This document shows, piece after piece, positions 7,262 through 9,683 of a stretch of DNA of 9,930 bases. The notes beneath the pieces were generated by a model. That model was not told the origin of the DNA. It saw nothing but the letters and a program-made list of their open reading frames with translations, and did not search any database. Made by a program: the position numbers and the translations under genes. The stretch's first letter is position 1, and the number at the start of each line of letters is the position of its first letter. Origin of the DNA: Saprospiraceae bacterium (GTDB taxonomy: Bacteria; Bacteroidota; Bacteroidia; Bacteroidales; JAIPBB01); the NCBI GenBank assembly GCA_021739805.1, contig JAIPBB010000202.1:1-9930 (forward strand), written 5' to 3'.

Positions 7262-8272
7262 CTAGAAAACATACGAAGTCAAATTTCTCCAAATCACATC
7301 TTTCAACTCTGATATTCCTTTATTAGCAACGGATGAAATAAATACTAATTGTAAATCCGGTAAATCTTTCTCTACTTCTTTTCTGACTTCTTCAATTAAT
7401 TCATCATCCAACATATCAATTTTCGTGACTGCAAGAATTCTTGATTTATGAATTAATTCAGGATTATATTTTTCAAGTTCATTAAGTAATATTTTATACT
7501 CTTTAGTAATATTTTTTGTATCAACAGGAACCATAAAAAGCAAAAGTGAATTTCTTTCAATATGTCGAAGAAATCTTAAGCCAAGACCTTTTCCTTCGTG
7601 CGCTCCCTCAATAATTCCCGGAATATCAGCCATTACAAATGAATGATTATCTCTATAAGATACAATGCCAAGATTAGGTCTTAAAGTAGTGAACGGATAG
7701 TTTGCAATTTCAGGTTTTGCAGCAGAAACTACCGACAACAATGTCGATTTACCTGCATTTGGAAATCCAACCAAACCAACATCAGCAAGAATCTTAAGCT
7801 CCATGATTTTCCAGGTTTCGATTCCTTCTTCACCCGGTTGAGCAAATCTGGGAGTTTGGTTAGTTGGGGTTTTAAAATGGTCGTTTCCAAGTCCGCCTCT
7901 CCCACCCTGAACAATGATTTTCTCTTGATTATGTTCTGTGATTTCACATTCAATTTCTCCGGTTTCAGCATCTTTAATTATCGTTCCAAGAGGTACTTCA
8001 ATATAAGAATCTTTTCCAAATGAACCGGAACTCAAATTTTTTGAACCGTTTTCACCATTTTCGGCGATAATATGCTTGGTGTAACGCAAATGCAACAAAG
8101 TCCAAAGGTTACGATTGCCTTTTACAATAATATGTCCCCCTCTACCGCCGTCACCACCACCAGGACCACCTTTGGCAATGAATTTTTCACGGCGCAAATG
8201 AGCAGAGCCAGCCCCACCTTTACCGGAACGACAATAAATCTTAATGTAATCGACAAAATTGGAGTTTCCCAT
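7262..8272 (-). CDS. obgE: GTPase Obg/CgtA
   Basis: The 336-residue protein has the Obg fold followed by the G domain. The glycine-rich Obg domain covers about 1-160 ([13 protein letters not shown] at 35-47, [13 protein letters not shown] near 123-135). The G domain has G1 GFPNAGKST (169-177), G2 with TT in [11 protein letters not shown] (192-202), G3 DIPG (216-219), G4 TKID (283-286) and a G5-like SSVANKGI (313-320). Obg is an essential GTPase that binds the 50S subunit late in assembly and responds to ppGpp. There is no C-terminal OCT domain; the chain ends soon after G5, which is the short form also seen in other Bacteroidetes. It lies 241 bp downstream of adk on the same strand, in the common hpt-adk-obgE order. 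The ATG at 8272 gives the expected N-terminus ([15 protein letters not shown]). Confidence 0.97.
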
Positions 8273-8513: not shown

Positions 8514-9683
8514 CTACCTCACATTTTTAAATGCAGTTTTAACAAGTATTGACAATTTATCTGCGATCTCTTTTTCATCACCCATACCATTAATAGAATA
8601 GAACTTATCCATCTTCTTATAATAATCGGCAACATAATAAGTTTTAGTTTCAAATTCTTCCAGCCTTCTAATAATCACTTCAGAGTCGGCATCATAACTT
8701 CTTCCTTGTGGTGTTTTATTTCTTGCATAAAGCCTTTTCATTGCTTCAAGTGCCGAAACTTCTAATCTAATCATACAAGAAACCGAAGATTCAAATCTTT
8801 CTAGAAGTCCATCCAGAATGTAAGCTTGCACAAGATTTTTTGGAAATCCTTTAAAAATAAAACCTTTTGAATCAGGGTTTTCATTAATTTTTCTTTCTAT
8901 CAATCGGATTGGAATTTCATCAGGAACAAAATCTCCTTTATCCATATATGGTTTTACAATTTTCCCTATTTCGGTATTTCTGGCTATTTCATCCCTTAAC
9001 ATCTCGCCGGTGGAAATATAAACCAGATTATACTGTTTCGAAAGTTTTTTAGCTTGTGTATCTTTTCCTGCTCCTGGATAACCTTGAATAACAACATTAA
9101 GCCATTTTTTCTCAAGTGTATTTTGTATTTCGTCGTTAAGCTTAACAAAAATATCTTCAATTTTTCCAACTCCATTGATAGGAATATACTTTCCAATATC
9201 CTGATAAAATTTAGCAACAGGAACAGTTTTTTCATCGTACTCATGGAGTCTGTTTTCAATAACGTCAATGTTATCATCCGACCTTCCCGACATTTTACCT
9301 CTGTTAAGCAAACGAGCTATCAACTCCTCCCTGGGAACTTCAAGGCTTAACATGCATGTTAAAGAAGTATTGAGTTTCAGCAATAAACCCTCAAGAATAT
9401 AAGCCTGAACAACTGTTCGTGGAAAACCATCAAATAAAACTCCATTAGAATTTGGCAATGACATTAATTTTCTTTCAAGAATTTGAACAATTAATTCATC
9501 ATCAACAAGTCCACCTTGTTCAATAATGTTTTTAGCTTGCATTCCAAGTTTAGTTCTATCAGCAATTTCTTTTCTCAAAATATCACCCGTGGAAATGTAG
9601 GTTAGGTTATATTTTTCAATTAAGTATTGAGACTGAGTGCCTTTACCGGCACCCGGTGGTCCAAAAAGTGCAACATTCAACAT
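8514..9683 (-). CDS. adk: Adenylate kinase with two tandem kinase domains
   Basis: The chain of 389 residues is twice the usual short-form Adk length (about 190). Domain 1 (1-192) is canonical: P-loop GPPGAGKGTQ (8-17), AMP-site STGDILR (31-37), DGFPR (85-89), short LID with RGKMSGRSDD (128-137) and ENRLHEY (143-149). Domain 2 (about 194-389) aligns throughout with only two single-residue gaps, at roughly 44% identity by hand count. It has GYPGAGKDTQ (201-210), STGEMLR (224-230), KGFPK (278-282), QGRSYD (326-331) and RRLEEF (339-344). Thus domain 2 keeps the P-loop Lys, the AMP-site Arg and the LID Arg residues, but replaces the DGFPR Asp and Arg with Lys and the P-loop Gly with Asp. Domain 1 should interconvert ATP, AMP and ADP; domain 2 may be regulatory, structural or altered in specificity. 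The frame is uninterrupted. The gene is between hpt and obgE on the same strand, which supports its being the housekeeping copy. Confidence 0.95.
   Translation of the reverse strand: MLNVALFGPPGAGKGTQSQYLIEKYNLTYISTGDILRKEIADRTKLGMQAKNIIEQGGLVDDELIVQILERKLMSLPNSNGVLFDGFPRTVVQAYILEGLLLKLNTSLTCMLSLEVPREELIARLLNRGKMSGRSDDNIDVIENRLHEYDEKTVPVAKFYQDIGKYIPINGVGKIEDIFVKLNDEIQNTLEKKWLNVVIQGYPGAGKDTQAKKLSKQYNLVYISTGEMLRDEIARNTEIGKIVKPYMDKGDFVPDEIPIRLIERKINENPDSKGFIFKGFPKNLVQAYILDGLLERFESSVSCMIRLEVSALEAMKRLYARNKTPQGRSYDADSEVIIRRLEEFETKTYYVADYYKKMDKFYSINGMGDEKEIADKLSILVKTAFKNVR

Follow-up and report, generated by a model that had tools for sequence, protein, structure and literature searches.

The window, by which we mean the whole stretch of 9,930 nucleotides that was analysed, carries on its minus strand a single open reading frame (8514..9683) for a two-domain adenylate kinase of 389 amino acids, in which the Pfam family ADK (PF00406) is matched twice, with a total of 286.9 bits over the whole protein. 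The first match marks domain 1 (residues 1-190; 9114..9683, minus strand; 155.1 bits), a complete adenylate kinase (Adk) in which the checked catalytic residues are present, and the second marks domain 2 (residues 193-389; 8517..9107, minus strand; 136.2 bits), a putative pseudo-adenylate-kinase domain. Downstream on the same strand lies the gene for an Obg GTPase (7262..8272, minus strand), with matches to Pfam GTP1_OBG and MMR_HSR1. The initial annotation had described one frame with two full Adk domains of about 44% identity, and both statements hold, the aligned halves being identical at 84 of 185 residues (45%).

Unless window positions are given, residues are numbered by reference to E. 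coli Adk (from NC_000913.3). In domain 1 the P-loop GPPGAGKGT (residues 8-16; 9636..9662, minus strand) conforms to GxPGxGKGT, and R36, the DGFPR motif (residues 85-89; 9417..9431, minus strand), Q92, R119, R123, R156, the DD pair and R167 are all present. The corresponding site in domain 2 has K207, D208, K278, K282, R317, R321, R328, Y330, D331 and R340, and differs at four places. G14 has become D208, right after the Lys of the P-loop GYPGAGKDT (residues 201-209; 9057..9083, minus strand); D84, the Walker-B Asp, has become K278 and R88 has become K282, at the two ends of KGFPK (residues 278-282; 8838..8852, minus strand); and D158 has become Y330 in the LID sequence RSYD (residues 328-331; 8691..8702, minus strand), such that the LID motif reads GRSDD in domain 1 and GRSYD in domain 2. 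This fourth change was absent from the list given in the initial annotation.

An AlphaFold2 model built with 59 sequences has a mean pLDDT of 89.1 and a pTM of 0.63, and from residue 191 onwards pLDDT is at least 87 in 19 of the 20 ten-residue blocks. As modelled, both folds are sure and the placement of one domain relative to the other, to judge by the pTM, unsure; because of the latter, no interface is offered here in support of regulation.

Profile models separate the two halves. Domain 1 passes five of the 24 listed NCBIfam models, all of them for adenylate kinase, namely NF001381 (212.2, cut-off 187), TIGR01351 (184, cut-off 168), NF011100 (185.8, cut-off 154), NF011105 (170.6, cut-off 162) and NF011104 (166, cut-off 160), and does not pass the other 19. 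Domain 2 alone falls below the cut-off of all 24 listed models, its best score being 171.4 against 187. The whole protein reaches 378.6 bits against a cut-off of 187 and is named adenylate kinase by NCBIfam because the scores of the two halves add up, and the second half, with its acids replaced (hereafter acid-swapped), is thereby hidden by automatic naming.

Distribution, classes and gene neighbourhoods

When the whole protein was used as the query, 7,992 matches were obtained among 8,000 scored, and the best 120 of these (window included) are 388-390 amino acids long with 96-100% query cover. A scan of genome contigs kept at least 80 loci, comprising 24 tandems (L001-L024), three tandems labelled Verrucomicrobiota and 53 single-domain genes, and the tandem is carried by the isolates Ancylomarina euxinus (L003) and Labilibaculum manganireducens (L016). 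An assembly or gene-calling artefact that fused two adk genes, or a recent duplication introduced in assembly, is ruled out by the uniform length of these best 120 of 7,992 matches and by the two isolates; furthermore, in G816, G817 and G823, among the 56 genomes of the family of L003, both of the tandem classes described below and one single-domain gene lie on one contig of 4.8-5.7 Mb. The initial annotation had argued against an assembly error, and we likewise regard an artefact as exceedingly improbable.

A literature search of open-licence PubMed Central text found no prior description of a bacterial two-domain Adk. In genome draws, where a tandem was called from a match to the whole window protein at E <= 1e-80, a tandem was present in 8 of 392 genomes from the phylum of L003 (its own genome included), seven of the eight being class B by their P-loop, and in 88 of 393 genomes from the order of L003 (its own genome again included). 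The form had been described as unusual for a core enzyme, which is true of the phylum as a whole and does not hold for this one order, where it is common. At least 22 of the 88 tandem genomes carry two tandem genes, a lower bound, since at most four candidates per genome were scored in the order draw. Over all 88, the number of ADK domains per genome is two in 30, three in 32, four in 19 and five in seven; the fifth match in G781 is a fragment with internal stops. The initial annotation had also raised the matter of an additional single-domain adk. Relatives show both states, and the tandem is the sole ADK gene found in 30 of the 88 genomes, a count in which some cases may reflect missing data. 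Seven of the 24 tandems in L001-L024 bear titles outside Bacteroidota or as Ignavibacteria (L006, Fermentibacteraceae; L008 and L017, Ignavibacteria; L012, Opitutaceae; L013 and L024, Myxococcales; L019, Krumholzibacteriota); all are metagenome-assembled genomes, and mis-binning or transfer may be responsible.

By the P-loop motif of domain 2 the tandems were labelled class A (57 non-redundant loci, window included) or class B (48 loci, with GY/GH/GF...GR P-loops), labels that sit imperfectly with the tree described below in the case of L166 (class A, inside the B set) and of L013, L024, L093 and L105 (class A, beside B in the domain 2 part). The class B label also required that no hpt or obg match be present in the flank; every GY/GH/GF...GR tandem shows neither, so that no row was moved by this requirement. 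Among the class A loci, and as far as the fetched flanks extend, an hpt-like phosphoribosyltransferase gene upstream together with obg downstream is found in 31 of 57, obg only in three (the window among them) and neither in 23. The upstream gene matches Pfam PF00156 in L001, the one locus checked in this manner, where obg was also confirmed by Pfam. Obg is a frequent neighbour of adk in relatives, and the hpt/obg setting recurs at many single-domain adk loci of the phylum. Neither gene was seen in the fetched flank of the 48 class B loci (e.g. L016, L169, L172, L175), an absence that is weak evidence because some flanks are short, and no fixed class B neighbourhood was found over these 48 loci, the largest class-B-only neighbour clusters being of five proteins.

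Several further arrangements were observed at individual loci. In L090, L121, L122, L124, L141, L155, L157 and L161 a tandem is followed by a single-domain adk and then obg, which places three ADK domains in a row, and in L161 (G771:C26) tandem and single share a frame, separated by one stop codon. The hpt-obg locus of Ancylomarina and Labilibaculum is occupied by a single Adk that has diverged and reads DGIPRH or DGMPRH (L085, 2513-3121; L100, 2969-3571), and the class A tandem lies elsewhere; that of Labilibaculum (L098, 1624-2739) adjoins a FIST sensor-domain gene. A histidine-kinase-like gene, labelled by eye, is located near the tandem of L168.

Residue changes and descent of the second half

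Residues were counted over 224 tandem proteins, namely the 57 class A loci, the 48 class B loci and 119 database proteins, the last of which and the 105 loci may hold near-copies of each other. Left out were L023 (cut by a contig end), L034, L035 and L051 (Verrucomicrobiota), second entries for a place already counted, and P0001, which duplicates the window. At the D84 position the second halves have Lys in 221 of 224, Thr in two, Asn in one and Asp never; at D158 they have Tyr in 223 and Leu in one. Asp stands at both positions in all 224 first halves and in all 69 single-domain Adks. The tandem is conserved, with its first half intact and its second half consistently acid-swapped. Elsewhere in the second halves G85, P87, Q92, R119, R123 and R167 are invariant (224/224), D159 is retained in 223 and R88 is still Arg in 160.

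These counts alter the emphasis of the initial annotation, which had pointed to GKDT and KGFPK and to an Asp and an Arg that had both become Lys. Both motifs are indeed present in the window, and neither is the key change of the family: among the best 120 of the 7,992 matches (window included) GKDT occurs in two and KGFPK in 21, the common element being the Lys for Asp. Replacement of the Asp is thus a family rule, and replacement of the Arg, which most second halves retain, is not. The K278/K282 pair, which had been mentioned as a potentially common active variant, is common in respect of K278 and a minority form in its entirety.

The two classes differ in the remainder of the pocket. Class A and database second halves together (n=176) keep K13 in 162, R36 in 169, R156 in 168 and R88 in 113, with K, S or L at R88 in 63; in class A itself the P-loop Lys is present in 46 of 57. 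Among the 48 class B second halves, K13 is Arg without exception, R36 is replaced by an acid in 37 (E 19, D 18) and R156 by Met in 42.

D84 of Adk holds the water shell of Mg. According to PMC11835391, Mg in a simulated Adk model is coordinated by two nucleotide oxygens and four waters, and phosphoryl transfer, which exceeds 500 per s when Mg is present, drops to 7.5e-4 per s in its absence. In Aquifex Adk the Walker-B Asp is Asp81, and Arg85, at D+4, grips the acceptor (PMC9599734); because of the DGFPR spacing these correspond to E. coli D84 and R88. For the R85K variant of the Aquifex enzyme, 0.3 per s is reported in one direction and 1.6 per s in the other; R36K, R85K, R124K, R150K and R161K together span 0.3-14 per s, and an estimated penalty of more than three orders of magnitude is given for Arg to Lys at the R88 place of that enzyme (PMC11835391). 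In the window, domain 2 is substituted at both the Walker-B Asp and the D+4 Arg. Pseudoenzymes are recognised in part by loss of catalytic residues from a conserved fold, which is the pattern found in domain 2.

It might be supposed instead that domain 2 is an active, re-specialised nucleotide kinase that uses a different NMP acceptor or a different metal, or that reacts without metal with the help of the Lys. Such an enzyme would be expected to hold on to the P-loop Lys, R36 and R156, as the class A and database second halves mostly do, and to Q92, R119, R123 and R167, as all 224 do, and the purifying selection described below would follow as well; it would, however, have to operate with the Walker-B Asp replaced in every second half (by Lys in 221), with Tyr at D158 in 223, with R88 exchanged for K, S or L in 63 of 176, where the Lys form is estimated to be costly in the Aquifex enzyme (PMC11835391), and, in all 48 class B proteins, with no P-loop Lys. 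We consider this explanation unlikely. The initial annotation had entertained a kinase for another monophosphate, and this is disfavoured, as none of the 224 second halves retains the Walker-B Asp.

The descent of the halves was examined in a quick tree of 104 rows, drawn from 34 of the 105 tandems, 29 singles, the three Verrucomicrobiota tandems and E. coli, with no eukaryotic rows; support is SH-aLRT without bootstrap, and 40 of 101 inner branches are open. The 34 first halves form one set (92) and the 34 second halves another (99), and these two and two Bacteroidota singles together form a third (95), with no settled branching order between the first halves, the second halves and the two singles. 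The stem of domain 2 has a length of 0.73 and that of domain 1 a length of 0.17. Separate origins of the halves are not favoured, both joining in the one set with the two singles. Median dN/dS, in pairs that had been chosen beforehand (domain 1 identity of about 72% or higher, dS below 2 in both halves) and are not independent, is 0.058 for domain 1 and 0.078 for domain 2 in class A (7 pairs), and 0.033 and 0.042 in class B (13 pairs). By these codon comparisons, domain 2 is under purifying selection.

Mean pairwise identity among the 105 second halves is 0.505 (sampled pairs), with 28 columns conserved at 97% or more, the swapped K and Y included; the first halves have 0.622 and 55 such columns, and the single-domain Adks 0.497 and 29. 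By identity and by conserved columns, then, domain 2 is less conserved than domain 1 and about as conserved as the singles. The tree and the constraint taken together fit one old duplication, after which domain 2 changed quickly and then came under constraint. The initial annotation had spoken of an old and maintained duplication with an altered second active site, and the tree, the dN/dS values, the residue counts and the 88 of 393 genomes agree with it.

Purifying selection and a confident fold would also follow if domain 2 bound nothing in particular and were a structural partner, serving stability, an intramolecular dimer or a scaffold, and the much altered pocket of class B is in line with such a role. 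A purely structural role sits poorly with the identity of the conserved columns, however, as many of the 28 are nucleotide-site residues (G7, P9, G10, G12, G85, P87, Q92, R119, R123, D159 and R167) and the swapped K and Y are among them; we judge it quite unlikely.

A search with domain 2 only returned 5,538 matches, of which the best 120 were sorted by motif: 69 have two domain matches with Lys in the last motif, and 29 a single match with Lys; Asp is found in 10 with two matches and in nine with one, and three are other. P0160 is a stand-alone domain 2 of 204 amino acids on a 3.27-Mb contig of Candidatus Sulfidibacterium hydrothermale, and may represent a gene that has been split or frameshifted, or a genuine single pseudo-Adk. 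P0187 is a protein resembling domain 2 with Asp at D84 yet Tyr at the D158 place, as read from its letters, and is a possible intermediate.

Possible roles of the second domain, and related systems

The interpretation that we favour, with moderate confidence, is that domain 1 is the working adenylate kinase, regulated or stabilised by domain 2, a conserved pseudo-adenylate-kinase that probably binds nucleotide. Domain 1 is taken as the chemistry half because its catalytic residues are intact, because it sits beside obg as many single-domain adks do, and because a third of the tandem genomes yielded no further ADK domain; with those residues it would run the reaction 2 ADP <-> ATP + AMP. Domain 2, probably the product of one old tandem duplication, retains the fold, the P-loop glycines, Q92, R119, R123 and R167 and has exchanged D84 for Lys and D158 for Tyr. 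It may still bind an adenine nucleotide, its Lys standing in for Mg2+, and would be expected to transfer phosphate badly or not at all. It is reasonable to postulate that it acts as an internal sensor of Mg-free ADP/AMP or of another adenylate, tuning or stabilising domain 1. Several observations count against this. The retained arginines could equally mean residual catalysis, R88 being Arg in the majority of second halves, and P0187 retains its Asp at D84. Furthermore, a single ligand shared by both classes is made less credible by the greater loss of pocket residues in class B. Of the roles proposed in the initial annotation, an allosteric or scaffold domain is the one that the residue pattern would favour, and the regulatory or scaffolding function itself we infer.

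A more specific version of the favoured interpretation, which we put forward tentatively and regard as doubtful, is that domain 2 is a Mg-independent adenylate sensor, in which a Lys standing where the Mg/Asp pair would be enables the closed, non-reacting Adk fold to keep hold of an adenine alarmone or of ADP/AMP free of Mg, and so to gate domain 1. The usual view of adenylate kinase is of an unregulated, near-equilibrium enzyme. Were the sensor real, adenylate kinase would be allosterically controlled in these bacteria, and the second paralogue class, with its P-loop Lys changed to Arg, would be tuned to another ligand.

Adenylate kinase, one of the best studied enzymes, is as a rule regarded as a single catalytic domain. 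A fused and conserved copy of the same fold that is acid-swapped, and that is sometimes part of the sole ADK gene found, offers a direct way to ask if the adenylate pool of bacteria is regulated at this step. The tandems also supply, for a textbook active site, a naturally occurring set of pocket changes: D84 to K and D158 to Y in the two classes alike, to which class B adds K13 to R, R36 to D/E and R156 to M.

Among known systems, domain 1 of the window is an ordinary member of the bacterial short-LID Adks (NF001381/PF00406), as found in single-domain form in Bacteroidota, and what the tandem adds to these is the acid-swapped second ADK domain. The multi-domain eukaryotic Adks, such as AK9 and the axonemal chain 9fqr_G8, which we take to be AK8, resemble the window protein in having more than one Adk fold per chain; AK5, AK7 and AK8 are likewise multi-domain. 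The domain 2 portion of the profile is matched by residues 1395-1588 of AK9. In the PDB, the top match in fold over the full length is 9fqr_G8 (E 3.1e-16, a low TM of 0.39, 19% identity), followed mostly by single Adks; the likeness described here is one of fold. The tandems labelled Verrucomicrobiota (L034, L035, L051) also have two ADK domains in one frame; unlike the window, all three have DGFPRT in both halves, and L034 carries ADK_lid (PF05191). A common origin with these is not favoured, their separate set in the tree (94) indicating a fusion of its own. In L034 (714-3906) the tandem is followed by a gene with two matches to PPK2, polyphosphate kinase 2. Last, in the phosphoribosyltransferase-Adk fusions (L060, 3401-4585; L102, 2938-4068) the partner of adk is a phosphoribosyltransferase domain, and not a second ADK as in the window.
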